Shown here piece by piece: positions 1,202-54,696 of a DNA stretch of 64,000 bases. The position numbers and the translations under genes are program-made. Below the pieces are notes generated by a model. It did no database searches and was not told where the DNA came from. It saw only the letters and a program-made list of their open reading frames with translations. Source of the DNA: a virus; IMG/VR virus record IMGVR_UViG_3300033148_004210, positions 37,596 to 101,595 of that record, one strand, 5' to 3'. Positions within the stretch are counted from its first letter, which is position 1. Each line of letters begins with the position of its first letter.

Positions 1202-1773
1202 TTTACATCCTTATATAAAGGCATAATAGATTGGTAACTTATTAAAGTATAATGTTTATAAGGTATTTTATTTGTCCTACCTTTTTTTCCATGTTGAGGT
1301 ATTCTCCAATCATTGCCATATAAATAATTTAAATATTTTTCTGGATTATGAGGAACTTTAAATTTCCTTTCTAAGAAAATAAGAGTGTCTAATGAACTTA
1401 TAAATTCTTCTGGAAACTTACTTATCATATCTTTTAAATAAATGTTATAATATTTTCCTTCTTTTTTATAATGATAAACATCAAGAGGCACTTTATTAGC
1501 ATTTAAAAAACATGTCGAAGCAAAATCATTCCAATTTATATGTGGATAAATATTAACTTTCTTTAAATCTGCAAGTATATTATGCCACAATTTACCATCT
1601 TTAAAATACTTATATTTGACTCCTATATCAATATCAGCATCTCCTTTAATAAAATTATTATCTCGGATTGCTCCTAAAAGAGTCCCAGAAGATAAGAAAA
1701 ATTCTATATTATATTTTTCTAATACATCTGCCATTTTAAAAAGATAGTTTTTTAACCCTAAATTTTTACTCAT
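1198..1773 (-). CDS. Second LicD-family transferase-like protein
   Basis: A 191-residue paralogue of the preceding gene. The same signature is present: SSGTLLGAIRDNNFIKGDADIDIG, with the catalytic Asp pair near residue 47, and a similar C-terminal YLNYLYGNDWRIPQ segment. Two tandem LicD paralogues suggest two acceptor positions, or one donor with two glycans. It overlaps the upstream AepY/HNH gene by 8 nt, so it is translated in the same operon. Confidence 0.75.
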   Translation of the reverse strand: MSKNLGLKNYLFKMADVLEKYNIEFFLSSGTLLGAIRDNNFIKGDADIDIGVKYKYFKDGKLWHNILADLKKVNIYPHINWNDFASTCFLNANKVPLDVYHYKKEGKYYNIYLKDMISKFPEEFISSLDTLIFLERKFKVPHNPEKYLNYLYGNDWRIPQHGKKGRTNKIPYKHYTLISYQSIMPLYKDVK

Positions 1774-2986
1774 TTATAGCCCTCATAAATCTTTCTTTAA
1801 TTTGTTTTCCAGTTAAAGGAATTCTTGGAGCATTTCCTTTGCCTTTTTCTATTTTAATAACTATAGTATTAGGAGCTAACGATTTAAAATCACAATAATT
1901 AGAAGCTGTTTGTTGTCCTCCTGTTGAAGCATGGGTGTTGTTATCCAAAATATAATGATGTAAATTTTTAGGATTTAATTTTTTATGTGTTATTAAACTA
2001 TTTAATCCCATAAGGGTTTCTCCATCTCCTGTTATAACAACTATTTTCTTTTTGGTATTTTTTGCAATACCGATACCTATAGAAAGACAACTGCCCATTC
2101 CTCCTAAAAGATATAAATTTTTATCACTATCTAATATTTTATAAATCGTCCTTGAAGTCATGCCTAATGAAGATATTAACAAAGTATCTTTTTTTAATGT
2201 ATATAAAATTAATTTAATCGCTTCCTCTCTTGTGGGATTTTTATTGTTTACTAGATACTTAAAATATTTTTTCCAAAATTTTCTGTTTATATTTGTTTTG
2301 CCATGACATGATAAACAAAGACTTATAAGGTTATTAAAATTTAAATTATTTTTATTGTAATCTATATGATGGATACATAAAGATTTTTTTATTTCGGATT
2401 GTTTTATACTACATAATTGGCAACTATATTTATCTCTTTTTCTAATTTCTTTTTTTAATCTTTCTGTAAATTCTATAGGATAAGGTTCAAAAGAAGAACC
2501 ATTATTCCAATGAGGACTATTTTCTCCTTTCTTTGCACATGCCCCACATCTTCCTAAACCAAAACAAGCGGAATCATAACAAATTTTATTTCCACATTCT
2601 ATACAATAATAAATTTGTTTGGTTTTTCCATCTTTATAATTATGATTTAATTTATCTTTTTTAGATTCGCTCAAACTTCTAATAGGAATTTCATGTATTT
2701 TTAAATATTTAAAAACAGTAGTTATTGAACAATTCTTTTCCATTGCTATTTTAGAAGGAATTTTTGAATTTTTGATATATTGTTCATAAAGAAATTCTTT
2801 AGTTAAAATTTTATCCCACTTTTTTTGATGGAGGTTTCGTCTCGGAATATTATATTTTTTCATCCAATATAATATCACTTTATGAGAACAATCTAATTCA
2901 GATGCAATCCTATGTAATGATATTTTATTTTTTATATATTTCTTGATAAGCAATTTTCTTGTTATGTTGTATTTTTTCTTAGCCAT
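1766..2986 (-). CDS. HNH endonuclease fused in frame to the TPP-binding half of phosphonopyruvate decarboxylase
   Basis: 406 residues in two parts. Residues 1-about 245 look like a homing-endonuclease protein: two repeated helix-turn-helix segments (near ISLHRIASELDCSHK and KIPSKIAMEKNCSI), a CxxC zinc region, and an HNH core with paired cysteines (SCQLC), LCIHHIDYN, CLSCH. Residues about 250-406 are the C-terminal (PP) domain of phosphonopyruvate decarboxylase: TREEAIKLI, SSLGMTSRTIY, GSMG-like GGMGSC, and the thiamine motif GDG...DNN (ITGDGETLMG to LDNN). The start ATG overlaps the end of the PYR-domain gene (AATGGCTAA). HNH proteins elsewhere in the window end right after the matching YWTEYFKNLI stretch, so here the stop has been lost and the frame runs on into the enzyme. 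Confidence 0.8.
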   Translation of the reverse strand: MAKKKYNITRKLLIKKYIKNKISLHRIASELDCSHKVILYWMKKYNIPRRNLHQKKWDKILTKEFLYEQYIKNSKIPSKIAMEKNCSITTVFKYLKIHEIPIRSLSESKKDKLNHNYKDGKTKQIYYCIECGNKICYDSACFGLGRCGACAKKGENSPHWNNGSSFEPYPIEFTERLKKEIRKRDKYSCQLCSIKQSEIKKSLCIHHIDYNKNNLNFNNLISLCLSCHGKTNINRKFWKKYFKYLVNNKNPTREEAIKLILYTLKKDTLLISSLGMTSRTIYKILDSDKNLYLLGGMGSCLSIGIGIAKNTKKKIVVITGDGETLMGLNSLITHKKLNPKNLHHYILDNNTHASTGGQQTASNYCDFKSLAPNTIVIKIEKGKGNAPRIPLTGKQIKERFMRAINE

Positions 2987-3344
2987 TTTGTTTTACATAT
3001 TTTATGTTTTTATAATTAAGTAAATTTAATAATTTAGGAGTTATTTTACTCATATGTCTATGATATTCAGGTTTTTTTCTTAGACTTATTAATAAATCTA
3101 TTTCTATGTCATAATATTGCATAATAGAAGTTAATAAAGTTAAACAAGAACCCAATCCACTATCTTGCATAAAAACTAAAGGATTTTTATCCATTAATTT
3201 TGCTCCTATCGCCATAGCCAAAGCTTCATCCTCTTTTGTGGCAATAATAACCTTATCATAATTTATTATTCCTTTAAATTTAGAACAAGGAACTCCCGTA
3301 ATAAAATCATGAGAATCGACCCATCGTTTTAATTTTCTATTCAT
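2979..3344 (-). CDS. aepY: PYR-domain half of phosphonopyruvate decarboxylase (AepY-like)
   Basis: 121 residues matching the N-terminal part of phosphonopyruvate decarboxylase: FITGVPCSKFKG, then ATKEDEALAMAIGAKL (with the Glu that activates thiamine diphosphate in this family), FMQDSGLG and LRKKPEYHRHMSKITPKLL. Family members are normally single chains of about 370-400 residues; here the chain stops and the TPP-binding half is on the next gene. The related sulfopyruvate decarboxylase ComDE is naturally two subunits, so the halves may still assemble. The reaction would be 3-phosphonopyruvate to phosphonoacetaldehyde plus CO2, which makes PEP mutase product formation irreversible. Confidence 0.8.
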   Translation of the reverse strand: MNRKLKRWVDSHDFITGVPCSKFKGIINYDKVIIATKEDEALAMAIGAKLMDKNPLVFMQDSGLGSCLTLLTSIMQYYDIEIDLLISLRKKPEYHRHMSKITPKLLNLLNYKNIKYVKQNG

Positions 3345-4593
3345 ATTTTAATTTTCTTCTTTTTGTTTCTTCTATAGGAGTAAGACTACGAAATTCGTCC
3401 AAAGTAGATATATACTTTTCTAATGATTTTGCGTTTTGTTTAGTTTTCAATATCTGTAATATTTTTTTAACTCCAAATATTTTTGCTCTCTGAGTTTGGT
3501 TCGCAAATATCACTATCGAATATCCAGCATCAAATAATTCTTTATTAGTAATATGTGGGAATTTTGAAGGCACAATTATTAATGGTATTTCTCTTTTCCA
3601 ATATTTAGGAATCCCCAGGGCTTCTTTTCCAGTTTTGTCTTTTGAGTGCATTAAAATAAGGTCTGCACCACAATCAGCATAATAATTAGCTCTTATTAAT
3701 GCTTCTTTTTTCCCGTATCCTCTAATAAGAGCCTCTGTTCTTGCTATAATACAAAAATCTTTTGTTCTTTGTATTGCTTTTCCAGCTTTAATTTTAGCAC
3801 CATGTTTTTTCATATCTACTATAGGAATTTTTCCTCCCCAAAGAGAATTAGATTTTGGAAAAATATTATCTTCTATACAAATTGCAGATACTCCAATTTT
3901 TTCTAATTCCTTAACTGCTCTTATAAATTGTTCTATATTCCCATATCCAGTATCGGCATCTACTATAACAGGAATATTAACAGATTCTACAATTGGTCTT
4001 GCAATATTTATCATATCCGTTAAATTTATAGTTTCATTGTCTACTAATCCTAATCGGGCACTTGTTTCAAAAGAAGAAACCCAAATACCATCGAACCCAT
4101 ACTGTTCTACTAATTTCGCTGTAATGGCATCATTAGCAGATACTATTACTAATTTTTCTTTAAAAGCATTTTTTAAAGTGTTTTTACTCCTAATATTTTG
4201 TAATAATTTGGTAGTTGATAAATTAGGATAATAAGGAACTAAAACAGTTTTAATTCCCATTTCTTCAGCTTTTTTAGTATAAGGAGGTATAAAGTCATCG
4301 CCATGAACTATTATATTAACATCGTATTTTTTCAAGTTTTCATATGTTGTAGGGGATTCTTTATCTCTACAATCTTTGATTACCAAATCAATTTCTTTAA
4401 TAGATTTTAATATTTCCACTCTATCTTTATAAGGCATTATAGGTTTTCTTTTATAATCTTGAGTTATATTATCAGGATGCACTCCAATTATTAAATAATC
4501 TCCCAAAGCTTTAGCTTTACGGAAAAATTCTATATGTCCCCGATGCGGTATATCTGCCACTACATTAGCGTATACTATTACTTTATTTTTCAT
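3337..4593 (-). CDS. aepX: Cytidylyltransferase-phosphoenolpyruvate mutase fusion (AepX-like)
   Basis: 418 residues, two domains. Residues 1-135 are a TagD/PCYT2-type cytidylyltransferase with HRGH at 17-20 and the STTKLL signature at 126-131. Residues about 140-418 are PEP mutase: ASP in VDNE (185), the metal-binding DADTGYG (212-218), and the EDN-IFPKSNS loop (241-250). The family signature there is EDKxxxxxNS, so the first Lys is replaced by Asn, while the later Lys247 and Asn249 are kept. The mutase makes the C-P bond (PEP to phosphonopyruvate); the cytidylyltransferase would make CMP-AEP from the pathway end product. Overlaps aepY by 8 nt. Confidence 0.88.
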   Translation of the reverse strand: MKNKVIVYANVVADIPHRGHIEFFRKAKALGDYLIIGVHPDNITQDYKRKPIMPYKDRVEILKSIKEIDLVIKDCRDKESPTTYENLKKYDVNIIVHGDDFIPPYTKKAEEMGIKTVLVPYYPNLSTTKLLQNIRSKNTLKNAFKEKLVIVSANDAITAKLVEQYGFDGIWVSSFETSARLGLVDNETINLTDMINIARPIVESVNIPVIVDADTGYGNIEQFIRAVKELEKIGVSAICIEDNIFPKSNSLWGGKIPIVDMKKHGAKIKAGKAIQRTKDFCIIARTEALIRGYGKKEALIRANYYADCGADLILMHSKDKTGKEALGIPKYWKREIPLIIVPSKFPHITNKELFDAGYSIVIFANQTQRAKIFGVKKILQILKTKQNAKSLEKYISTLDEFRSLTPIEETKRRKLKYE

Positions 4594-5558
4594 AAATAAA
4601 AACTTCCTTTATAATCATTAAAAAATTGATTTCTAATTCCTTTTTTAACTGCCTTTTCATAAATTATTTTCGCTAAAGCAATATCGCAAATAGCTATCCC
4701 TATATTATAAGCTATAATTTTTTCTTTATTATTATCTCTTGCTCTTTTTCCTAAAATAATTTCCCCTAATTCTGCATAAATGTTTGGTAATCCTCCGCTA
4801 AATTCTCCTTTTGATTTATAATATAAAGTTTGTTCTTTGTCATCGGTAATAGTTTTATCAAATTTCATAGCACAATTTTCCCATCCTCTATGATGAATAG
4901 GTAAAACCAATACCCCTTCTTTTAACCAATTCGGATTAACAAAAGGTTTATTTACATAAGTAGTTGCTGTTAAAATAATATCCGAATCTTTTACTGTTTT
5001 TTCTATTGATGAACAAATTTCAAAAATTAACTTTGTTGGGCGAAATCTTTTAATAAACCTAACAGCAGTGTTTTTATATCTATAAATTTTTATTTTCTTA
5101 ATTTGTGGACATAATTTATATATAAATTGCAAGCAAGCTACTGATTGGACACCTGCACCTATAATTGCAAGGGTTTTTGCTTCTTGAGTAGCAAAATATT
5201 TCGCAGTCAACCCAGCCATTACTCCTGTTCTCATAGCAGTAAGCCAACTAGCTTCCATTACTGCTAAAGGATGTCCTGTAATCATGTCATTTAATAAATA
5301 AGTGCTAATTACTTTTGGAATATTTTTATTAGTATTTTTGGGAAAACGACTTACCCATTTAATTCCTGACATATTGTATTTCGGAACATAAGAAGGCATT
5401 GAGGTAAAAAATATACCATCTTCAGGAGCAATACTTACTTTGGCTGGCATAAAAACTCTTTCGTTTGCGTGTTCTTTTAAAACATCTACTATCGCATTTA
5501 AACATTCATTAAAAGTAATCTTTAATGATAATATTTGTTTATGAGATAAAACAATCAT
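4590..5558 (-). CDS. Ornithine cyclodeaminase / mu-crystallin family protein
   Basis: 322 residues with the family layout: an N-terminal alpha/beta part with MPAKVSI and a central SGIKWVSRFPKN segment, a MEASWLTAMRTGVMAGLTAKY stretch, and a Rossmann NAD(P) loop (AIIGAGVQS). Members are ornithine cyclodeaminases, alanine dehydrogenases or imine reductases. Its place between the PEP mutase and the AEP transaminase suggests it acts on an amino or imino form of the phosphonate, or supplies an amino acid; the substrate cannot be read from sequence. Overlaps both neighbours. Confidence 0.8.
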   Translation of the reverse strand: MIVLSHKQILSLKITFNECLNAIVDVLKEHANERVFMPAKVSIAPEDGIFFTSMPSYVPKYNMSGIKWVSRFPKNTNKNIPKVISTYLLNDMITGHPLAVMEASWLTAMRTGVMAGLTAKYFATQEAKTLAIIGAGVQSVACLQFIYKLCPQIKKIKIYRYKNTAVRFIKRFRPTKLIFEICSSIEKTVKDSDIILTATTYVNKPFVNPNWLKEGVLVLPIHHRGWENCAMKFDKTITDDKEQTLYYKSKGEFSGGLPNIYAELGEIILGKRARDNNKEKIIAYNIGIAICDIALAKIIYEKAVKKGIRNQFFNDYKGSFYL

Positions 5559-6645
5559 TTTTTACCTTCTTTACTGCTTTCAAAAACTTTCTAATATCTT
5601 TCTCTGTTATATTCCCTATATTTCCTAACCTAAAGGTTTTTTCATTGGTTAATTTTCCAGGATAAATAGTGAACCCTTTTTCTTTTAATTTATCATGAAA
5701 TTTATTAAAATCAAATTTTTTAGGTTCATAAAAAGTCGAAACTATCATACTTTTTTCCTCATCTATAAATAATAAAGGTCGAAATCCTAATTGTATCATA
5801 CCATATTCCAATTCCATAGAATTGCGACAATATCTTTTATATCGATTTATTCCCCCTTCTTTAAAATATTCTTTTAAAGCTTGTTTTAAAGAATATAAAC
5901 ATTGCACCGCAGGTGTAAAAGGAGTTTGATTATGTTTATCAAAATGCTTATAATTACGCCATAAATTTAGATAATAAGACCTTATAGGATAATTTCGAGT
6001 TTTCATAAGTGCCATTTTTTTTGCAATTACAAATGAAATTCCTGGCATCCCTTGTAAACATTTATTTGCTGAACCCATAATAAAATCGGCTTGAACTTTT
6101 TGAATATCAATAGGTATTCCCCCAAACGAAGATATAGTATCAACAATATAAATTTTTTTATGTTCTTTAACTATCTTTCCTATAGTTTCAATATCATTTA
6201 AAATTCCTGTAGTAGTTTCGTGATGAATTACTGCTACTGCGGTTATATCAGGATAATATCTAAAACAATATTCGATAGCATCTATTCTGATAGAAGTTCC
6301 CCATTCTGTTTTTATTGAAATAGTATTAATACCATAACTTTTTGCTATTTCTTCTATTCGTGTTCCATAAGCTCCATTTTCTAAAATCAATAATTTTCCA
6401 TTTTTCGGAATAACAGAATTAATAGTGGCATCCATAACAGAAGTTCCTGAACCAGTAAATAATATAGAAGTATATTTTTTATCCCCATGAACTACTTTAA
6501 GTAAATCTTTTCTAATACCTTCCATCACTGCCCCAAACTCCTTTTCTCTTGGACAAATATCAGGAACAACTTGAGCATATTTTACAGTGTCGGTAGTTGT
6601 TGCTGGTGCTGGAGTTAATATAATATTTCGTTTAATTTTTTTCAT
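5539..6645 (-). CDS. aepZ: 2-aminoethylphosphonate transaminase-like class V aminotransferase
   Basis: 368 residues, the usual length for PhnW/AepZ-type enzymes. Visible: LTPAPATTTDTVKYA at the N terminus (family LTPGPxxT), a GSGTSVMDA loop, VDTISSFGG with Asp169 that contacts the pyridine nitrogen, and the PLP lysine in SANKCLQG (Lys195). The expected reaction is phosphonoacetaldehyde plus an amino donor to 2-aminoethylphosphonate. It completes the PEP to AEP route with the two neighbouring activities. The start overlaps the stop of the sulfotransferase gene (TAATG). Confidence 0.87.
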   Translation of the reverse strand: MKKIKRNIILTPAPATTTDTVKYAQVVPDICPREKEFGAVMEGIRKDLLKVVHGDKKYTSILFTGSGTSVMDATINSVIPKNGKLLILENGAYGTRIEEIAKSYGINTISIKTEWGTSIRIDAIEYCFRYYPDITAVAVIHHETTTGILNDIETIGKIVKEHKKIYIVDTISSFGGIPIDIQKVQADFIMGSANKCLQGMPGISFVIAKKMALMKTRNYPIRSYYLNLWRNYKHFDKHNQTPFTPAVQCLYSLKQALKEYFKEGGINRYKRYCRNSMELEYGMIQLGFRPLLFIDEEKSMIVSTFYEPKKFDFNKFHDKLKEKGFTIYPGKLTNEKTFRLGNIGNITEKDIRKFLKAVKKVKNDCFIS

Positions 6646-7625
6646 TAATATTTCCTATAAGGTTTCCCAGAATGGAATCCATTGGCATTAAGCCATTTAT
6701 AATGTTCTCTAACTGCATCCACACATTCTTCTTTTTTATAATCAAGAGTATATCCAAAATACTCCATTATATCTCCAAAATAATATTCAATAACTTTTCT
6801 TTGATATTCTGTTAAAATTTCCTTATAAATACCAATTCTATTTTTATTAATTCCTTTATAAATTTTAGTAAAACTATTTCCTTTCCATTCTACTCCACAA
6901 CAAGTTGGATTAAGATTTAAAAGGGATTCTCTAATTCCTATCCATTGACATAATTCTGTCATTGATTTTTTTGGAGATTGCACTAACTTCTCATAACAAA
7001 TATTTTTATATTTTGTAATTCCGAATTTAAGCCAATTATCTTTCGCCATATTCATACATAAATAACCTCTATCAATAAAATCTCTTAATAATCTTTCTTT
7101 ACTGTCATATTGATTTTTGTAATGCTTATCCCATCCAGTTAAAATAGAAGCGAAATTATCTCTTGGGTCTCTAACTATATTTATAAATTTGGCATCTGGG
7201 TAGATTTTAAAAATTTCATTTACATATATTTCAGAATGGGTATCTTTAGTAATTACAATTTTATCTTTTATTCTTATTTCTTTATCTAAAACATTTCTTA
7301 CAGCATCTATCATAGAAACAAAAAACCCACATACATCTTTATTGTGAATCGATAAAAGTGCATCAAAATTATTTTCTAATTCTTTCTGAAAAATCTCCTT
7401 TTTACCCCATTTTAAAACTATTTGACACAAATCTTTTAATAAAAAATTCTTTATTCTATCTTTTTGTTGTTCTAAAGTATATTTAGATTTTAAATATTCA
7501 GGATAAAAAGAATACCAAAAATGAGTTTCATAAGGATAGACCCATAAATCAGGATGTCCATCTAAAAGACTAGCGAGTAAAGTAGTCCCTGATTTTCTAT
7601 GTCCTCCAACAAATAAATGTTTCAT
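6645..7625 (-). CDS. Sulfotransferase-family protein
   Basis: 326 residues. The N terminus GGHRKSGTTLLASLLDGHP is the PAPS 5'-phosphosulfate loop of the sulfotransferase fold, and FINIVRDPRDNFAS near residue 155 matches the 3'-phosphate site (RDPRxxxxS). It would sulfate a carbohydrate or small molecule using PAPS. The overlap with the AEP transaminase start places it in the surface-chemistry operon. Confidence 0.82.
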   Translation of the reverse strand: MKHLFVGGHRKSGTTLLASLLDGHPDLWVYPYETHFWYSFYPEYLKSKYTLEQQKDRIKNFLLKDLCQIVLKWGKKEIFQKELENNFDALLSIHNKDVCGFFVSMIDAVRNVLDKEIRIKDKIVITKDTHSEIYVNEIFKIYPDAKFINIVRDPRDNFASILTGWDKHYKNQYDSKERLLRDFIDRGYLCMNMAKDNWLKFGITKYKNICYEKLVQSPKKSMTELCQWIGIRESLLNLNPTCCGVEWKGNSFTKIYKGINKNRIGIYKEILTEYQRKVIEYYFGDIMEYFGYTLDYKKEECVDAVREHYKWLNANGFHSGKPYRKY

Positions 7626-7958: not shown

Positions 7959-8542
7959 TATTTACTCCAATTTTTAGGGGGTTTTATATACTTTTGTAAT
8001 CCGTTTATAGACTTTAAATCCAATAATTTCCATACTTCTTTTAGTTCTTTATCAGGATTTTTTACTAAAAATTCATACGATACAATATTACTAATATTTA
8101 AGTTTTTTTCTTCAAAATGAAGAAAACTAGCTACCATATGGTGTCTAAATCCTATATATAAATTCTTACTACATAATCCTCTAACACTATGTTTATCTTG
8201 TCCTACCCAAGATTTATAAGTTTGTTCAGCATCTCTAACAATAAAAATAAACTTCGCTTCAGGAAATACTAAAGCCAATCTTCGCCAAGTCATAGCTTCT
8301 ATACCAGCATTTAAAGCAAATTTAGCTCCCTTATATTTCCCAGGTGCATAAGAAAATTCTTTAATAATCTTTTTAACATAAGGGTCGTTTTTATATCTTC
8401 CTAAATGAGAAACCCTAATACTGTGCCAAAGTTCATAAGGCTCAAATTTTATTTCTTGGACTTCAGGATGTTTTAATATTAAGTCTCTTAAAATGCTAGT
8501 GCCACTTCGTCTCATACCAATTATAAAAAATAGTTTATCCAC
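7958..8542 (-). CDS. Second sulfotransferase-family protein
   Basis: 194 residues, shorter than the other copy. IIGMRRSGTSILRDLILKHP is the phosphosulfate-binding loop; FIFIVRDAEQTYKSW is the second PAPS-contact segment. The C terminus is reduced. Together with the 326-residue copy it implies PAPS-dependent sulfation, or use of this P-loop-like fold for another transfer. Confidence 0.75.
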   Translation of the reverse strand: MDKLFFIIGMRRSGTSILRDLILKHPEVQEIKFEPYELWHSIRVSHLGRYKNDPYVKKIIKEFSYAPGKYKGAKFALNAGIEAMTWRRLALVFPEAKFIFIVRDAEQTYKSWVGQDKHSVRGLCSKNLYIGFRHHMVASFLHFEEKNLNISNIVSYEFLVKNPDKELKEVWKLLDLKSINGLQKYIKPPKNWSK

Positions 8543-14855: not shown

Positions 14856-17800
14856 TTATTCCTCCTTTAAATCTTTTATTTTAGGGTAAGGTTGTTCAGG
14901 AAATTTTTTATACCAATCTCTTTTTTCTTTTTTATTACCTAGACACATTAAATAAACATGTTTTTTCAAAGCGGATTTTATCTCTAATCTATCTCCGTAA
15001 ATTTGTTCTAAATTTTTCTTAGATGTGCTTCCATGTTTAGCATTTAAATTTCTTGTATGCACTTCTTTCCCATCAATAAAAATTCTTCTTTCTGGTAATA
15101 ATCTCCTTTGAACACCAACATATCTCCAATTAGTTGCTTGATAAATATAACCAATATGTCCATGATTCGGGTCAGCATAAGAAATTAAATATTTAAATTC
15201 TGGTCTATTTTGTCTAATATATTTGAAAGATTGACCTATACAATAACTTTCTATATTTTTAGGTAATCCGTCTTTACTAAATAATCTGATTAATTCTACA
15301 CAATTTTCTCTATCTATCTGTAACCATTCAGTAACTCTTCTTCCTATAGGGCATCCATAGACAACAGCAGTAACTAATTCTTTATTATAATAGAATCCTA
15401 AAGCCAGTTTAACAGATGAAGCAATGGTGTGGGAATAATGATTTTTTATTATGTATTTTTTAGCTTCTCGAAAATCTATTTTTTTTATTTCTAAATCTTT
15501 TAATTCAAAATCCAATTCTTTTATTTGTTTTTTCTCTTTTTGAATTCTTTGATATTCTTGATTTACAATGTCTATATTTGGAGCGAGGTTAGAGACTTGC
15601 ACTCTACTCTCCGAACTGGAAGTTCGGCATGTCTTTTTCGACACTTCCCTCGCAAACTGTTTTTCGTTTTTAAGTTTATTAATATATTCTGCCACTTCGT
15701 CTTTAGTTTCTATTCCTATAATTTCCTTAATATTCCACCCCATTGCCTCAAATATAGTTTGGAGTTTCATTAAAATATTACGATTCTTCATAGTTTCCCA
15801 ATCTACTTTGTTTTTATCCACATGTCCGTATGTTTCTTCATCAAATGCCATCACATTTTTTAATTTGCCTTTAGTTGTAATAGAATGTGTAGTTACTTTC
15901 CCTTTGGTAATTAAATGTTCGATTAATTCTTCTTGTTTAATTTTATCCATATTTTTTACTAAAACTTTTTGTCCAAAATGTAATTCCCATTCTTTCTTTA
16001 ATTTAGAAGAAGTTAATTTACCTCCATCATACCAAAGAATATTCTTTTTATTCTGCTCATATTCATCTGAATTTACATAAATATAATAAAATAATTCTCC
16101 TACTTTTTTCTTAAAAGAAGGAACTAATTCTTGAGCATATTTTGAAGCCCGAACAAAGATTGGCATGTTTTTATATTCATCTATAGGTTTGCCAATTTTA
16201 CAGGGAAAAGCGATATTTTGCAGTGGTTGATTTCTTATTTCTTTAATTTGATTTTTAATCCATACAAAAATAGATTCTTTGGATTCTTTATCGAGTATTT
16301 TATCTATAAGAGTTCGTTGGAATTTTTTCATAAATACAGTGCTATCTTTTCTTTTTGCTTCTACTCCTTTAACTTCTTCTTCTAATCCTTTGTCTGTTCG
16401 AACATAACCAAGATACCTACACTTTGTTAATATCAAAATTTTCTCATAATATCCTTTATATTCGAATTCGTTGACAATATTTTCTTTACCATATTTATCC
16501 TTAGCCCATTTTTTTACTAAACTATTCAAAAGATTGGAAATATCATCAGTATTGTTGTTTATCATAACCCCATCGGTGTCCACATATATAACTTCGTAAC
16601 CCTTTGATTTTAAAGCAGTTATGACATAATGTAAAAGGTCTCGAACTAAAAAAGTAGTCGCAGATGCAACTTGTTTATTATAAAGTCTAAAAAATCTATT
16701 CCCAAATACTCCATATGCACTATTCACAACTGTTTTAACTGCATCATATCTTTTTTTTATATCTTTATAATGTCCACTATTTATTGGACATTTTGATAAA
16801 GCGGACTTAATTTGATTTTTCAAAGTTATCAACTTCTTGACAACTGTTGGAAGTAACGCATTTGAATTTTGTGCGAAATGGCTATTTTCTATAGGAAGTA
16901 TGTCAAAACCATCTGCTATCAATCCTTGTTTATCAGATTTTCTTATATTAGCAGGGTCTAAACAAAAATCTATAATCATTGAGGGGTAGCAAGAACTAAG
17001 GTCATAGATTCCAGTTCCTTCAGTAAACGCTCCAGTTTTAAACGCTTCTCTAAATGCTCCAGCAAAATCTTCTTTTTCTGATAATGTTCCTCTCATTTCG
17101 TCAGGTTTCATTGGTAAAGCTACTTTTTGATTTTTAGCTTCTTGTAATAAAAGCATATCCAATACTCTACTATTCCACAAAAGGTCTTCCCATTCTATTT
17201 TCGACATTCTTCTAATTTCATCAAAATAAGAAATAATTTTATGTTTCTTTTCTAACTCAACTAATATCTTAACATCGTCTATATTTCTTTCTTTTGTTTC
17301 AGGAGAAAGTTTAGAAAAATCTAACTTCATATGCTTCTTGCCACGACCTAAATGTTTTTTAGCAATATAATCTAGAGAATAGGCTTGCTCTCTATTTAAA
17401 GTTACCTTTTTAAACCAAGAAAGATAATCTATAATACTTATACCAGCAGGGTAATAAATTTCTCCGTCTCCATAACGAGTTTGTCCAATAGGACTAATTG
17501 ATTCGGCAAAATCTGGATAACGATTACATAAATACGGAAAATCGAATCTTGTAAAATTCCAACCCAATAATATATCAAATTTCTCTTGTTTAAGATACTC
17601 TATAAAAGAATCTATCATTTTGTATTCTGTTTCATAATCTTCGAGATAAAATGTTTTAATTTTCTCACTAAAAGAATTCGAAACACTAATACAACTAACA
17701 GGTTTATTTGCTTTTTTTACATCAGGCAATTCATCCGATAATATTTCTATATCTATAAAGGAATATTTAATAGGACATTTATCTAATTTATCAATAGCAT

Positions 17801-18056
17801 CAATCATATATCTTTGACAAAATCTTATATCTCCTTCATACGATTTATCACTTCTTTGTTTACGAATGTCGGAAGGCTTGCATATAAATATTTTTCTTAA
17901 AGGAGTTCCATCGAATCCTTTAAATTTACCGTTAATATCGTGTTCGTATAGATAATGAAAGAAATTATTAACTTTTTTAATTTCCTGTTGTCCTTCTTTA
18001 TTACGAAGGAAAAGATATATTTCACGATATTTATTATAAATATTAACTAACTTCAT
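14856..18056 (-). CDS. Family B DNA polymerase fused to a Mom-like DNA-modification domain
   Basis: 1066 residues. Residues 1-about 800 are a family B polymerase: Exo I IDIE (Asp102, Glu104), Exo II NFTRFDFPY (167-175), motif A YDLSSCYPS (351-359), motif B KTVVNSAYG (441-449), motif C YVDTDG (491-496). Residues about 845-1066 resemble phage Mom-type proteins (GNAT-like fold; adenine carbamoylmethylation in Mu): NHYSHT, ALGFYYNKELV, CVELIRLFSKDGLPKN, SYADPNHGHIGYIYQATNW. The link (about 802-826) is in frame with a tRNA-Gly-like sequence. No ATG opens the Mom part separately, so the reading frame as it stands is a fusion. It should replicate phage DNA and may modify it. Confidence 0.83.
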   Translation of the reverse strand: MKLVNIYNKYREIYLFLRNKEGQQEIKKVNNFFHYLYEHDINGKFKGFDGTPLRKIFICKPSDIRKQRSDKSYEGDIRFCQRYMIDAIDKLDKCPIKYSFIDIEILSDELPDVKKANKPVSCISVSNSFSEKIKTFYLEDYETEYKMIDSFIEYLKQEKFDILLGWNFTRFDFPYLCNRYPDFAESISPIGQTRYGDGEIYYPAGISIIDYLSWFKKVTLNREQAYSLDYIAKKHLGRGKKHMKLDFSKLSPETKERNIDDVKILVELEKKHKIISYFDEIRRMSKIEWEDLLWNSRVLDMLLLQEAKNQKVALPMKPDEMRGTLSEKEDFAGAFREAFKTGAFTEGTGIYDLSSCYPSMIIDFCLDPANIRKSDKQGLIADGFDILPIENSHFAQNSNALLPTVVKKLITLKNQIKSALSKCPINSGHYKDIKKRYDAVKTVVNSAYGVFGNRFFRLYNKQVASATTFLVRDLLHYVITALKSKGYEVIYVDTDGVMINNNTDDISNLLNSLVKKWAKDKYGKENIVNEFEYKGYYEKILILTKCRYLGYVRTDKGLEEEVKGVEAKRKDSTVFMKKFQRTLIDKILDKESKESIFVWIKNQIKEIRNQPLQNIAFPCKIGKPIDEYKNMPIFVRASKYAQELVPSFKKKVGELFYYIYVNSDEYEQNKKNILWYDGGKLTSSKLKKEWELHFGQKVLVKNMDKIKQEELIEHLITKGKVTTHSITTKGKLKNVMAFDEETYGHVDKNKVDWETMKNRNILMKLQTIFEAMGWNIKEIIGIETKDEVAEYINKLKNEKQFAREVSKKTCRTSSSESRVQVSNLAPNIDIVNQEYQRIQKEKKQIKELDFELKDLEIKKIDFREAKKYIIKNHYSHTIASSVKLALGFYYNKELVTAVVYGCPIGRRVTEWLQIDRENCVELIRLFSKDGLPKNIESYCIGQSFKYIRQNRPEFKYLISYADPNHGHIGYIYQATNWRYVGVQRRLLPERRIFIDGKEVHTRNLNAKHGSTSKKNLEQIYGDRLEIKSALKKHVYLMCLGNKKEKRDWYKKFPEQPYPKIKDLKEE
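15579..15653 (-). tRNA. tRNA-Gly(UCC)-like sequence inside the PolB-Mom frame
   Basis: 75 nt including an encoded CCA. Acceptor GCGAGG pairs with CCTCGC (the seventh pair is G-A); anticodon stem CCGAA/TTCGG with loop CTTCCAG, giving anticodon TCC (15620-15618) with U33 and A37; T arm TAGAG/CTCTA with loop TGCAAGT; discriminator U, as in bacterial tRNA-Gly. Unusual: the D arm (GTGTC, loop GAAAAA, GACAT) lacks the GG pair, position 8 is A, and T-loop position 55 is G. These departures recall non-translating glycyl-tRNAs, or decay. Expression is unproven. Confidence 0.55.
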
Positions 18057-23036: not shown

Positions 23037-23606
23037 TTATTCCTCCACCAATCCTGCTAAAGCTAATACACACGCATCTGCAATATCTTGGTCTTTTATT
23101 TTTAATTTCAAATCCAACGCATTATTGATATATTCTACGATTTCTTTTTTGAGTGCATGTCCCTTTATTTTTTTAGAAGATTTTTTAAAATTTACTTTAT
23201 TTCTTGCCGAAGTTGGTAATAGAAATTTCTGCTTACGAGCCAATCCTTTAAATTTATCATAAACAAGCACCGAATGACGAGCCAATGCTTTAAGCGTATT
23301 GACATTAGACCCAAAATAACAATCTTCAATAATATTAATATCTATTTTATAAGTTTTACTTATTTCCATAGCAAATTCATTTAATTGATTAATGAATAAA
23401 TCAAGAGCATCTATTTGAACTACATTTTTAGGAATAGTTATTTTTCGGGTTTTATCTATAATAAGATAACTATCAGTAGTTCTAATAACAGCTACCCCTG
23501 TGCTTCGAACACTAACATCCCAACCTATAGAAATCATATTAGGTTTCAAGTGGATTCCTAAAAAAGCTTCTACTCTGGATTTATTAATCTTTTTTATTGG
23601 TTTCAT
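23037..23606 (-). CDS. RuvC-like Holliday junction resolvase
   Basis: 189 residues. RNase H-fold acidic residues in RuvC order: ISIGWDVSVRSTGVAV (first Asp), INIIEDCYFG (Glu), and DQDIADACVLALAGL (last Asp). Resembles phage and poxvirus-type resolvases. Would resolve recombination intermediates ahead of packaging. Overlaps the prim-pol stop by 23 nt. Confidence 0.8.
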   Translation of the reverse strand: MKPIKKINKSRVEAFLGIHLKPNMISIGWDVSVRSTGVAVIRTTDSYLIIDKTRKITIPKNVVQIDALDLFINQLNEFAMEISKTYKIDINIIEDCYFGSNVNTLKALARHSVLVYDKFKGLARKQKFLLPTSARNKVNFKKSSKKIKGHALKKEIVEYINNALDLKLKIKDQDIADACVLALAGLVEE

Positions 23607-25491
23607 TTTGTTTTATTTTTTCCTGTTCAATTTCTTCTACTGTTTTTACTAAATGATTTTCCCAATCATATAAACAAGGTATAGGAAATCTTTTACGTCT
23701 TATTTTTGCATCTCTTACGTTTTCTACTAAAAATTGAGTATCCGTTCCTTCTTCGTTATTATAAACATATTTTGCTAATAAAGCAGGGAATTGTCCTATT
23801 TGGTCTTTTGCAAAAAAGTTATCGTCATTTCTTAATTGCACGAAACAAATTAAAAATCCATTTGTCTTTTTAACTTTTTCTATAAGTTCTGCAAATACAT
23901 TATCAGTTCTCGCAAAATCATCTGGTTTAACCCAATCGAATATAGTTACTTTTCCTTCTCTTAAAATTACTTTGGAAGGACTACTTACCCACGCACTAGA
24001 AAAATCGCCACCCTTCATACCTAATTTTAAAGCCACTTTAGCAAATCTTCCACCAGTTTCATTGTAAATATAATCTGGCTTTATTCCTTGATTAACTAAT
24101 TTTTTTACAAAGTTCATCGAAAGGGTCGTCTTCCCGTATTTATTTTGACTTCCTATTATTATTAAATCTTGTTGATTAAAATAAGCCCAATTATGAAAAT
24201 AAGGCACTTTAAATTTTATAGGAACTCCGATTTGAAGTAATTCTTCTGACCAATCTAATTGTTTAATTATTGAATACTTAGCACCTCGTTTACATAAATA
24301 TTCTTCTCTAACTAAATATTCCAATACTTTATCTACTCTCTTTTTTTCTTCCCCTCTATTAGTTCCTGCAATAGTCATTGCCATTTCTGTTCTACTCATT
24401 TCGCCAGTTTCTTTTAAATGTTCAAGCACTTTATGAGCTAATTCTTTTTCATCAAATACATTATATTTATCCAATTCTCTAATCATAGCTCTTATTGCTT
24501 GTTGTTGCATAGGTTTTTCTAACATGTGCTTATTTAAAACATTTAATACATATTTTGTTTGGTCAATATTTAATTGTTTTCTTAAAATACCCCCTAATTT
24601 TATAAATTCGGTATTACAACTTCCATCTAAATTATTATTTTTTAAAAGAAATTTTTTCGGGTCTATTTTAAAATCTTCAGTTATAATATCTTCTCTTAAT
24701 TTTTCGCTATTCGTTTTTCTTGGCACTGTTATTTTAGAAAGTAAAAGTTTTTTTAATTCCTTTGGCATTTCTATAATTGGGCGTATTTGTATTATTCGTG
24801 AAATATCTTTAACTTTAGAAGGATAAATAACAACTTGACCGCCCTCATTTTCAATATCTATTTTAAGAGAATCTATTCTTGTTTTTGGAAAGTTTTTATC
24901 ATATTTATAGAAAAGGTGAAACCCATTAGTAGATTCTTGTGTTAAAGTTTTACCCATTAACTTTTTTATTTCTTCAGGAATAGGTTTTTGGTCTATATCT
25001 ATAATAATAATATTACTTTTACTACCAGTTTTAACTCCTAAATTTAATCCATTAACTAACCACCCCTGCCATTCGTCTTTTTCCTTGTGGTTTTTATTTG
25101 TCCAATCTTTTTCGATAGGTTTTTTTTGGTTATTAGCAATAGGAACTAAATCGAATCCGTTTTCTACATAAAAATCTAAAACTTTTTCTATATTTATTTC
25201 GTCTGTTTTTGTCATTACTTTTACTTTTAATAATTCTTTAAGATAATGATATTGTTCTTCTTCATCGACAGGAAAATTTTTCTCTATTTTTTTAGCTATA
25301 TCTAAAACGGTATATTTCTTTTTACAAACAAAACAATTCACAATATTTGTATTGGGAATGATATTTGCTACCATCTTATCTTGATTACAAAAAGGACATT
25401 TTACCATTATCACCTTGCCAGATTTTTTATAAGGAATTTTTCTTAATTTTAAATATTGAAGTAAATAAGTCTCTATAATTTTTTTATACAT
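23584..25491 (-). CDS. Prim-pol/helicase replication protein
   Basis: 635 residues. N-terminal zinc ribbon (Cys32, 35, 53, 56), then an archaeo-eukaryotic-type prim-pol segment (FDLVPIANNQKKPIEKDW, LGVKTGSKSNIIIIDID, TNGFHLFY), a winged-helix-like part (LKETGEMSRTEMAMTIAG), and a RecA-like ATPase with IIIGSQNKYGKTTL and a hydrophobic Walker B (FLICFVQLRND). It should prime and unwind at the fork. Expected partner of the PolB. Confidence 0.82.
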   Translation of the reverse strand: MYKKIIETYLLQYLKLRKIPYKKSGKVIMVKCPFCNQDKMVANIIPNTNIVNCFVCKKKYTVLDIAKKIEKNFPVDEEEQYHYLKELLKVKVMTKTDEINIEKVLDFYVENGFDLVPIANNQKKPIEKDWTNKNHKEKDEWQGWLVNGLNLGVKTGSKSNIIIIDIDQKPIPEEIKKLMGKTLTQESTNGFHLFYKYDKNFPKTRIDSLKIDIENEGGQVVIYPSKVKDISRIIQIRPIIEMPKELKKLLLSKITVPRKTNSEKLREDIITEDFKIDPKKFLLKNNNLDGSCNTEFIKLGGILRKQLNIDQTKYVLNVLNKHMLEKPMQQQAIRAMIRELDKYNVFDEKELAHKVLEHLKETGEMSRTEMAMTIAGTNRGEEKKRVDKVLEYLVREEYLCKRGAKYSIIKQLDWSEELLQIGVPIKFKVPYFHNWAYFNQQDLIIIGSQNKYGKTTLSMNFVKKLVNQGIKPDYIYNETGGRFAKVALKLGMKGGDFSSAWVSSPSKVILREGKVTIFDWVKPDDFARTDNVFAELIEKVKKTNGFLICFVQLRNDDNFFAKDQIGQFPALLAKYVYNNEEGTDTQFLVENVRDAKIRRKRFPIPCLYDWENHLVKTVEEIEQEKIKQNETNKKD

Positions 25492-49085: not shown

Positions 49086-49154
49086 TTTATATTTTTTCCT
49101 ATATTATATAATCCATTTTGTAATTTTTCATATTGTCATATAGCAACCCGAAAT

Positions 49155-49202
49155 CTAACTTTTTAAATTCCTAAAAATAACTAACTTTCGCAAATTCCTA
49201 AC
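49155..49202. repeat. Two tandem copies of the conserved 20-22 nt element
   Basis: 49155-49175 (CTAACTTTTTAAATTCCTAA) and 49181-49202 (CTAACTTTCGCAAATTCCTA, then AC). Same motif as upstream of six promoters. Confidence 0.65.
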
Positions 49203-49368
49203 ACTTTGTTATACTTGAAACCCACCCATAATAATACTTATCTGTATTTTTTTCTAAAATTTCAGTATATCCAAAACATACATGGAAATATTGTTTTCCG
49301 TTTCGTGGCAACCTTCGCCACCCCCATTTTTTACTGATTTTTTTCGCTTCGTTTTTTGTTATTTCCAT
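49198..49368 (-). CDS. Small hypothetical protein
   Basis: 56 residues, KNEAKKISKKWGWRRLPRNGKQYFHVCFGYTEILEKNTDKYYYGWV. Stop TAG. No family recognised. Confidence 0.5.
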   Translation of the reverse strand: MEITKNEAKKISKKWGWRRLPRNGKQYFHVCFGYTEILEKNTDKYYYGWVSSITKC

Positions 49369-49401
49369 TTTTTCGCCTTCCTTTCGAGTTTCCTTACCCT
49401 T

Positions 49402-49460
49402 CGTCCTTCCTTCCGCTTTTCGCCCGTTTTTACCCTATAAAATCACAAAATCCACCCTAT
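49402..49460. repeat. Direct repeat, copy 1 (59 nt)
   Basis: Similar to 51233-51291, sharing CGTCCTTCCTTCCG and CCGTTTTTACCCTATAAAAT. It covers the 3' end of the 49457-49633 gene and the space below. Confidence 0.55.
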
Positions 49461-49633
49461 TTTTTAACTTGTCTGATGTCCTGTCCTTTTAACTTTTTAC
49501 CATTACAACTGCATAAAAATTCAGTTTTATGTCCGCAGTTTTGAATTATAAAATTTTCAACCCAAACTTGCAAACTATAATCAAACCCATTTTTGACAAA
49601 ACCGTCTATTTCCATGTTGTTAGAGTATCTCAT
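49457..49633 (-). CDS. Small hypothetical protein
   Basis: 58 residues, QNCGHKTEFLCSCNG suggests a small metal or disulphide cluster; GGAGGT upstream of ATG 49633. Stop TAG. Confidence 0.5.
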   Translation of the reverse strand: MRYSNNMEIDGFVKNGFDYSLQVWVENFIIQNCGHKTEFLCSCNGKKLKGQDIRQVKK

Positions 49634-51003: not shown

Positions 51004-51063
51004 AGTATACCATATTCAGAAGTTTTTTACAAGGTCTATATAGTAACTTTTTTATATCTTAAC
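51004..51063 (-). promoter_or_regulatory. Sigma-70-like promoter with upstream conserved element
   Basis: Minus strand TTGTAA (51032-51027), 17 nt, TATACT (51009-51004). Element GTAACTTTTTTATATCTTAA (then C) at 51043-51063, 10 nt above -35. Drives the gene at 50984. Confidence 0.7.
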
Positions 51064-51086
51064 TTTATCATATAGTAACTCAAAAT

Positions 51087-51134
51087 CTAACTTTTAAAAT
51101 TCTTAAAAATAACTAACTTTCTTGTATTCCTAAC
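51087..51134. repeat. Two more copies of the conserved element
   Basis: 51087-51107 (CTAACTTTTAAAATTCTTAA) and 51113-51134 (CTAACTTTCTTGTATTCCTA, then AC), just upstream of the promoter above, giving three copies within about 90 nt. Confidence 0.63.
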
Positions 51135-51232
51135 GCCACTTATTTTTCCGACCTTAACCTTGACCGCTTGTTTTACCTTGAAAACCGCCAATTTAGGCTC
51201 GCCTTGACTTCTTTTCTGCCTTCCTAACCTTC

Positions 51233-51291
51233 CGTCCTTCCTTCCGTTTTCCGTCCGTTTTTACCCTATAAAATCGCAAAATTTGCCCTAT
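51233..51291. repeat. Direct repeat, copy 2 (59 nt)
   Basis: Counterpart of 49402-49460. Lies directly after the stop of the 51293-51652 gene (minus strand), so it would be a shared 3' region. Confidence 0.55.
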
Positions 51292-51292
51292 C

Positions 51293-51652
51293 TTATGCGG
51301 AGTATACTTCCAACCAATACAAGCCCAAACTTTTAAAAATCGTTAAACCGCCAAAATCCTCCAAAAATCTCTTGACTTCTTTTATGCTTAATCTTAACCG
51401 CTTGACTATAAGCCGATTATTGTATACCGTTTTTTGCCCGTTTTGCCCTATGCAAACGCCACGCCTTACGCCTTCCGTATAAAATACCGCCTTTTCACCT
51501 TCCGCAAATAATCGCCTTATGCCTTCCGTCAATTTTGCCCTTGTTTTATACTTAATGAGTATTATGTTATCCGCATATACCTTGCCCGAATTATCAAGCC
51601 AAAAACCTTTTGCCCTTGTTTTTCTTTTTGCTATTTTGTAAAGTGTATACAT
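51293..51652 (-). CDS. Hypothetical basic protein
   Basis: 119 residues, basic, beta/alpha (YKIAKRKTRAKGFWLDNSGKVYADNIILIKYKTRAKLTEGIRRLF; LIVKRLRLSIKEVKRFLEDFGGL). The coding looks richer in G on the minus strand than its neighbours. No family recognised. Confidence 0.55.
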   Translation of the reverse strand: MYTLYKIAKRKTRAKGFWLDNSGKVYADNIILIKYKTRAKLTEGIRRLFAEGEKAVFYTEGVRRGVCIGQNGQKTVYNNRLIVKRLRLSIKEVKRFLEDFGGLTIFKSLGLYWLEVYSA

Positions 51653-52690: not shown

Positions 52691-52882
52691 CTATACACCT
52701 AATAAACACAACACAACCGCAACCACCCAAAATCCAAAGAAAATCACATTGAAAATAATTTTACCTTGTATATGCTCTTGTCGAGCTTTTTCTTTACTTT
52801 GTCCATAATTCACATCACCACTTACACTATCCACTATCCCCGTTATTAACTTTTGGTATGTGTAACTTCTTTTAGTGTTCAT
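52691..52882 (-). CDS. Small membrane protein
   Basis: 63 residues from ATG 52882-52880 (GGAGGC upstream): a soluble start then GKIIFNVIFFGFWVVAVVLCLLGV at the C terminus, a tail-anchor-like helix. First gene of the minus-strand block after the divergence region. Confidence 0.55.
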   Translation of the reverse strand: MNTKRSYTYQKLITGIVDSVSGDVNYGQSKEKARQEHIQGKIIFNVIFFGFWVVAVVLCLLGV

Positions 52883-52902
52883 TGTCCTTGCCTCCATTAT
52901 CC

Positions 52903-52960
52903 AGTATACACTATCTACACCAGAAGACAAGAGGGAAAAACTTCCTTTTTTATCCTTAAC
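52903..52960 (-). promoter_or_regulatory. Promoter of the leftward block with degenerate upstream element
   Basis: Minus strand TTGTCT (52930-52925), 16 nt, TATACT (52908-52903). At 52941-52960 a diverged element (CTTCCTTTTTTATCCTTAAC) sits 10 nt above the -35 box, the same place as in the better copies. Confidence 0.58.
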
Positions 52961-53005
52961 ACCCTACGCTTACATCATACCTGTATACATACACACCGCG
53001 ATAAG

Positions 53006-53086
53006 CTAACTATTGCATACTCTTAACATCTACTCTATAACTAACTTTCGCGTATTCCTAACCACTTAACTATTGATAATCCTAAC
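53006..53086. repeat. Iteron-like array of the conserved element
   Basis: Three close copies: 53006-53027 (CTAACTATTGCATACTCTTA, then AC), 53041-53062 (CTAACTTTCGCGTATTCCTA, then AC), 53066-53086 (TTAACTATTGATAATCCTAA, then C). More diverged TAAC steps continue to about 53300. Spacing within a copy is TAAC-N13-TAAC. Confidence 0.65.
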
Positions 53087-53759
53087 TATACAGCCCAACA
53101 TCTTAACCACTTTATAAAACCCTTAACCAAGTGGCTACCAACCGCCAACGAATAAAACCGCTAACGCCTATTCTCCAATACCTTATAATGTAACCAACCA
53201 ATAAGCTATCGCGTAACGCCTTCATTATCTAACTAATGCTATACCAATAAACAACCTATGCTTTAACTATCACTATACAATAAGACGTATACCAATAACT
53301 AACGTGTAAGACAGAGGACAAAAGGATTATACTGATGATAAGGACGATAAATTTTTGCTAAACTCATCAGATGAGAATATCTACGCCACGCACAACCCTC
53401 CATTATAATCATACATTATAACACCGCCTAATCGTTACTATGTAAGGACTTACATCAAAAAAGGGGTGGGGTTAAGATTAGCAAAAGGTAGTTTTTGACC
53501 TATTTTAAACCCTATTGTAGCCTTAAAACGAGCACTTTACCCCCTAAATAGCCCATAATAAGCCCTATATCGGGCATTATAAAAAAGTTCGCCTCACTCT
53601 ATCTTTAATGCTTTTAGTGTCTTCGTAGGGGGTCGTATTTAGCATTATATGGGGGTTTGAATTAATCACTTAGAAGTAAATATAGGGGTTGATTTTAGTA
53701 ATATTAATGGGGTTATGGAATAGACTAAAGGGGACATTATTGGAACATTTTACATAATT

Positions 53760-53815
53760 TATCAGAACTGATACGATAGTGTGGAATTTATAAAACTAAG
53801 TATCAGAATTGATAC
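53760..53815. promoter_or_regulatory. Paired palindromic sites TATCAGAA-TGATAC
   Basis: TATCAGAACTGATAC (53760-53774) and GTATCAGAATTGATAC (53800-53815), about 41 nt (four helical turns) apart. TATCA and TGATA form the inverted arms. A typical arrangement for cooperative repressor or initiator binding. Further CTGATAGGG half-sites occur near 54015 and 54055. Confidence 0.5.
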
Positions 53816-54091
53816 AGTATTATGTTGTGTTGATTTTGATACGTATTTAGGGCTGGGGCTAAATTTAGCTTTAGGGTTAATAGGAGCTAATTCTGAAACG
53901 GGAGTGCATATTTTTGGATGATTTTGTCATATTTGGTGTATAAGTGGTCTGATTTTTTGATAGATAGTGCATATTTTCTATACCTGAAGAAGTATGATAT
54001 TTTAGAATTTATCCTGATAGGGTATAGTATTTTTGTTAAATTGGTAAAATTATACCTGATAGGGGCTGAATTTTTATTTTATATTAAGTAA

Positions 54092-54121
54092 GGGAGGTGG
54101 CATTTTGCCACCCCCCTTTTT
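54092..54121 (+). terminator. Rho-independent terminator
   Basis: GGTGGCA-TTT-TGCCACC stem-loop flanked by G/C and followed by TTTTT on the plus strand. No plus-strand gene lies upstream within the gene-free region, so it would end an untranslated transcript or protect the region from read-through. Confidence 0.65.
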
Positions 54122-54384
54122 CCGAATCATATCGCGTGGTTCGCAAAGTTCGATTTTTATATGACGAATATATGAGATTATGTATGGATACCTACAAAGA
54201 TTTGTATGGATGGATACAATTACAATAAAGGATTGGCACAGGGCGAAGCCCTTAGAAGTTTACTTATAGATAAGGGTTATTTTTGGTGAATTGGGTAGCC
54301 ATCGGTGATTGGTATCCAAATTAAGAATGAAAAAGTGATAATCTTATCATCTGTAATGATAATGAAAATAAATGCCTCAAAACC

Positions 54385-54414
54385 TTGACAGATAGGGGGG
54401 TTATGTGGTATAAT
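54385..54414 (+). promoter_or_regulatory. Rightward sigma-70-like promoter
   Basis: TTGACA (54385-54390), 18 nt ending GTGG, TATAAT (54409-54414). Serves the small plus-strand genes from 54487. No CTAAC element in the same position. Confidence 0.75.
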
Positions 54415-54486
54415 AGAGGTAGAATAAGGTTAAAATGACATGTTAATGTCTACTAGCCCGATTTTTAATATTTAAAGGAGAAGAAA

Positions 54487-54696
54487 ATGTTAGGATTCGT
54501 ATGGTATAAAAGAGGAAATAGAGTAATAGGCAATAGTCGTTACGGGTATGGAAGAAAAGGAACAATAATAAAAATAGACTTTTTGGGAAATATCTTTGAT
54601 AGACGTTCATTTTTAGTTAAATATGATAATGGATTAAAAGCAGGTGGTTATCACGAATTTCGTGAAAATTTAAAGCGAATTAAGGAGAATAAATAA
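54487..54696 (+). CDS. Small hypothetical protein
   Basis: 69 residues, YGYGRKGTIIKIDFLGNIFDRRSFLVKYDNG, an SH3-like small beta protein by pattern. AAAGGAG upstream. First plus-strand gene. Confidence 0.6.
   Translation: MLGFVWYKRGNRVIGNSRYGYGRKGTIIKIDFLGNIFDRRSFLVKYDNGLKAGGYHEFRENLKRIKENK

Follow-up and report, generated by a model that had tools for sequence, protein, structure and literature searches.

The PrimPol of phage NrS-1 recognizes a rare 8-nt template sequence, 5′-TTTGGTTA-3′, which has been proposed as its origin (PMC7102993, PMC8718748). The T7 gene 4 primase uses sites of the form 5′-(G/T)2GTC-3′, to which the 3′ flank contributes (PMC12839067). We analysed a 64,000-nt stretch of DNA (the window; all positions refer to it unless stated otherwise) that covers bases 37596–101595 of a 101,595-bp virus record. 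The source is an uncultured tailed phage of ∼ 101 kb that maps as a circle, with an identical 99 bp at both ends of the record, and encodes tape-measure and baseplate-like proteins. Its gene-free gap at 52931–54486 is a real, conserved region, and the gap and the phage's replication genes share features with both described systems. Like iteron-type plasmid and phage origins, the region is gene-free and has same-strand repeats of a motif next to an AT-rich flank of biased composition; unlike theirs, its repeats are not arranged in a regular tandem array, and a Rep-type initiator gene was not recognized.

One link to NrS-1 and T7 is a protein of 635 aa (23584–25491, − strand) with a CHC2-like zinc finger, a Prim-Pol domain and a DnaB-like C-terminal domain. 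It matches PF09250 (E 7.5e-17) and, by sequence, pRN1 ORF904 (E 9e-6). The C-terminal assignment comes from a fold match of an AlphaFold model, which is moderate (pLDDT 71, pTM 0.39), so its fold matches back domain identity only. As in T7 gp4, zinc finger, primase and DnaB-like helicase lie in one chain and in the same order (the C-terminal fold being that of the moderate model), whereas the catalytic domain is of the DnaG type in T7 and of the Prim-Pol type here. The Prim-Pol protein of phage NrS-1 likewise includes a helicase part, but sequence and domain order differ, the zinc finger is absent from NrS-1, and our phage has a separate family B DNA polymerase (PolB). The remaining replication genes encode a RecA/UvsX-like recombinase, RuvB, a 5′–3′ exonuclease and a tyrosine recombinase. 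PolB (14856–18056, − strand; PF00136) carries a C-terminal Mom-like DNA modification domain (PF25680, E 8.6e-45, residues 854–1059). Matches of the relatives' polymerases to this PolB end before most of that domain, and the fusion may therefore be special to this phage. Elsewhere in the window (1766–6645, − strand), adjacent genes match a TPP enzyme C-terminal domain (with an HNH part), a PEP mutase plus cytidylyltransferase and a class V aminotransferase; judged by these matches, they look like a phage-carried phosphonate pathway. A sulfotransferase gene lies next to them (6645–7625).

A sequence-only reading had described the gap as a gene-free divergence region and taken it for a replication origin and master control region. 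Indeed, 52931–54486 holds no ORF of at least 60 aa, and the genes point away on both sides, the leftward ones starting at ∼ 52881–52930 and the rightward ones at 54487. A sigma70-like promoter (TTGTCT-16-TATACT; 52903–52930, − strand) reads leftward from the left border, and a sigma70 promoter with 12/12 matches (TTGACA-18-TATAAT; 54385–54414, + strand) reads rightward from the right border. The same arrangement, in which the promoters at either border read out of the gap, is seen in most of the relatives' gaps.

Within the gap, cumulative GC skew reaches its minimum at 53603, which is also the minimum of the whole record (the maximum lies at genome position 28321). The sequence-only reading had named a skew minimum located elsewhere as the outcome that would speak against an origin here; the genome-wide minimum falls inside the gap. 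The switch in composition that it had described is real, but its placement near 53450 was ∼ 150 nt off: bases 53301–53500 are about neutral in skew and 53501–53600 are C-rich. Non-coding skew is −0.36 to the left of 53603 and +0.40 to the right, as strong as in the coding arms, and the switch sits well inside the gap; the skew depth statistic is 203, whereas 1000 base permutations reached at most 87. Because gene direction switches together with skew here, skew alone is no proof of replication. Left of the switch lies an A+C-rich flank (52931–53439, + strand) with TAAC steps. These are enriched in 52931–53320, as had been claimed for the left part (17 copies, compared with 6.6 ± 2.4 and a maximum of 15 in a first-order Markov control). 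In 13/13 phages the + strand of the left flank is rich in A, in contrast to the T-rich coding DNA further left.

No DNA similar to the gap region was found among 50,697 phage records (INPHARED), nor was a TerL relative by protein search of the same records, and no relatives were recovered with the first rightward gene (69 aa) as query. The relatives' loci came from TerL-based scans; in them, too, a divergent gap with a skew switch lies upstream of TerL, the skew minimum is in the gap and the layout is the same. Pairwise comparison of the gaps gave a common short segment that resolved into box A, GGGTYNNNNTTAGCAAA. The base before GGGT varies, and a pattern that demanded A at this place missed several contigs. 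Box A together with box B (53469–53518) and a second box A at 53630 is the strongest feature of the gap, and it had been missed by the sequence-only reading. The first box A, GGGTTAAGATTAGCAAA, lies at 53469–53485 (+ strand). Box B, CCCTATTGT (consensus CYCYAYTRT), lies at 53510–53518 (+ strand), its start 41 nt from that of box A. A dyad, ATGTAAGGACTTACAT (53440–53455), lies upstream of box A. Dyad, box A and box B form a three-part signature at fixed spacing that is common to the gaps of 15 phages. In a fixed-spacing alignment of the 15, box B reaches 11.3 bits over 11 columns, compared with a shuffle maximum of 5.0. The dyad, ∼ 13–48 nt upstream of box A, keeps its place in the relatives and is variable in sequence; summed dyad scores are 104.4, compared with 74.6 ± 5.0 in shuffles. 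The second box A, GGGTCGTATTTAGCA (53630–53644, + strand), lies immediately to the right of the skew minimum, and in the window and several relatives such a box A-like copy, often GGGTCGTATTTAGC, is found 4–139 nt right of the minimum. A degenerate copy with one mismatch, GGGTTGATTTTAGTA, follows at 53686–53700 (+ strand).

Box A resembles the T7 sites in its GGGTC core and in a putative contribution of its 3′ flank, and the NrS-1 template motif in containing GG(G)T. It differs from the T7 sites in also permitting GGGTT and in being almost unique per genome, where T7 has many sites for Okazaki fragments. NrS-1 has one copy of its sequence per strand, whereas the copies here lie on one strand and are accompanied by a second box and a dyad. 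NrS-1 and our phage both encode a Prim-Pol protein, and both have a rare short sequence where the origin is proposed to lie. Ten long contigs (892 kb) contain the exact sequence GGGTYNNNNTTAGCA 12 times, against 0.3 expected from second-order Markov sequences; 11 of the copies lie in gaps, all on the + strand, and one lies elsewhere. Scanning with a leave-one-out matrix built from both boxes gave one outstanding match per long Prim-Pol contig, in the gap and at 21–45 bits. The next-best matches scored at most 14.3 bits, apart from an antisense match overlapping the site in one contig (G020).

The signature was put to a prediction test on further contigs gathered through the Prim-Pol protein alone. 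All four new contigs that span a skew minimum (G018, G020, G022 and G023) have an exact box A on the + strand, ∼ 308–443 nt left of the minimum; one of them, G022, is close to G016, which was already in use. Five more contigs collected in the same way (G019, G024, G025, G026 and G028) do not contain the skew switch. The Prim-Pol gene is also present in seven contigs of the first, TerL-based set. Altogether, the box A/box B element is found in 11 of the 12 contigs that have this Prim-Pol gene and span a skew minimum, and the twelfth has a degenerate copy. The matrix scan found no strong box A/box B element in G014 (90 kb, not closed), which shares TerL, the recombinase and the exonuclease and is without Prim-Pol, PolB and RecA. 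No other long contig is without both Prim-Pol and the element, and G014 belongs to a more distant phage, so the association of the two could stem from common descent.

There are exceptions among the relatives. G038 has the Prim-Pol gene with a recognizable box B and only a degenerate box A, and the matrix scan found no strong element in G013, G037 or G039. Exact copies of box A lie outside the gap in G011, G023 and G039, and in G011 the matrix scores the out-of-gap site higher. At one locus (L021, in G007) box A lies right of the skew minimum. The contig L039 (JAEOSD010000030.1), which has a TerL relative (61% identity) and box A/box B, is binned in a Lokiarchaeota MAG; its promoters look bacterial, and it is therefore likely to be mis-binned. 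Another locus (L020) has a tRNA-like sequence, read by eye, in the right half of the gap at about 3617 (+ strand).

Further repeats and palindromes account for part of what the sequence-only reading had listed. Its repeats of a conserved element, taken for iterons, did not hold up: the 26-bp repeat ATAACTAACTTTCGCGTATTCCTAAC has a single copy in the gap (53037–53062, + strand), and the other two, at 49177 and 51109, lie in intergenic spacers of the left arm. Those spacers (49105–49463 and 51037–51294) have in common imperfect repeats of 98 nt and 87 nt (79–82%), ∼ 1.9 kb apart. The box A copies are irregularly spaced, so neither motif forms an iteron-type array, and no neighbouring gene matched a Rep-type initiator family; the small proteins encoded there have no family assigned. 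The palindromes of the gap are the dyad ATGTAAGGACTTACAT and two copies of TATCAGAAYTGATA; the latter pair, TATCAGAACTGATA (53760–53773) and TATCAGAATTGATA (53801–53814, 41 bp from the first), lies right of the centre. Two CCTGATAGGG repeats (54013–54022 and 54055–54064, + strand) follow, and CGATAGGG, which bears on them, is among the most over-represented 8-mers in the relatives' gaps.

We conclude that the gap is probably the main replication origin of the phage, placed between two divergent early promoters; this assignment is read from sequence. The earlier conclusion is thus partly supported, on better grounds than those it cited. The word origin is warranted because a conserved cis element goes with replication genes, to which the skew minimum adds, and control region is warranted because of the divergent promoters; the iterons and the place of the switch do not stand.

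The gap might instead be a hub of transcription control only, made of divergent early promoters and operators, with the element a binding site for a phage regulator and skew simply following gene direction. The sigma70-type promoters that flank the gap in this phage and its relatives, the palindromes on the right side and the joint switch of skew and gene direction fit such a hub. We nevertheless consider it unlikely, given that the border promoters are ∼ 0.5 kb and 0.9 kb away from the core element and that this element goes with the Prim-Pol, PolB and RecA genes. In L039, moreover, the element (at 8513) is away from the gene-direction switch and skew minimum by 2.3 kb. Skew between element and switch is +0.07 ± 0.04 there, though the genes point right, and +0.23 to +0.26 beyond the TerL start. 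This is as expected for opposing replication and transcription and is suggestive, being one case.

It is much less probable that the element serves recombination or packaging, as a resolution or attachment site for the conserved tyrosine recombinase or as a terminase pac site. The recombinase is indeed conserved in nearly all relatives, and the gap lies 3–7 kb upstream of TerL in most of them, but the distance to TerL is widely different in L039 and G012, G014 keeps TerL and the recombinase without the element, and box A and box B do not form an inverted repeat about a core of 6–8 bp. Contig ends that fall in the relatives' gaps were considered as physical genome ends and rejected, as G000, G007, G010 and G012 have their end overlaps at other places and the break in G002 is at a tandem repeat. 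This 24-bp tandem repeat lies beside the gap of G002 (89.8 kb), whose two contig ends overlap there (L007 1–110, L011 1–60); G002 is therefore close to a closed circle.

A structured non-coding RNA or leader encoded in the gap is very improbable: a terminator-like hairpin without an upstream gene (GGTGGCATTTTGCCACC, then C6T5; 54096–54112, + strand) and a best-scoring short helix between RGGG of box A and CYCY of box B speak for it, but RNAalifold gave no consensus fold of the core on either strand, there was no Rfam match at the gathering score, and covariation is weak because box A and box B hardly vary. The hairpin, which lies within the gap and is not preceded by an annotated gene, hints at a possible short + strand transcript.

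For the origin, we tentatively propose a way of working by analogy with the described systems. The origin core would be 53440–53518 (dyad, box A and box B), flanked by the A+C-rich DNA on the left and G-rich DNA with the second box A on the right. The zinc-finger/Prim-Pol/helicase protein would recognize box A on single-stranded DNA and synthesize a primer in the leftward direction, opening would be aided by the dyad and the A+C-rich flank, and the second box A would prime a further strand; all of these steps together make a possible rather than a probable scheme. Priming at box A on the + strand may occur as it does at the T7 and NrS-1 sites, and what backs it is the co-occurrence of Prim-Pol and the element. 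A somewhat more doubtful suggestion is that this one protein would start in a sequence-specific manner at box A/box B, without prior opening by a separate initiator, and that such a start site would be common to a clade of uncultured tailed phages.

Origins of large uncultured phages are mostly guessed from skew alone, whereas here a short signature predicted the site in contigs that had not been used for its discovery. Since the signature directs attention to one particular protein, a test of whether a Prim-Pol primase-helicase recognizes the origin needs just one protein and one oligonucleotide.
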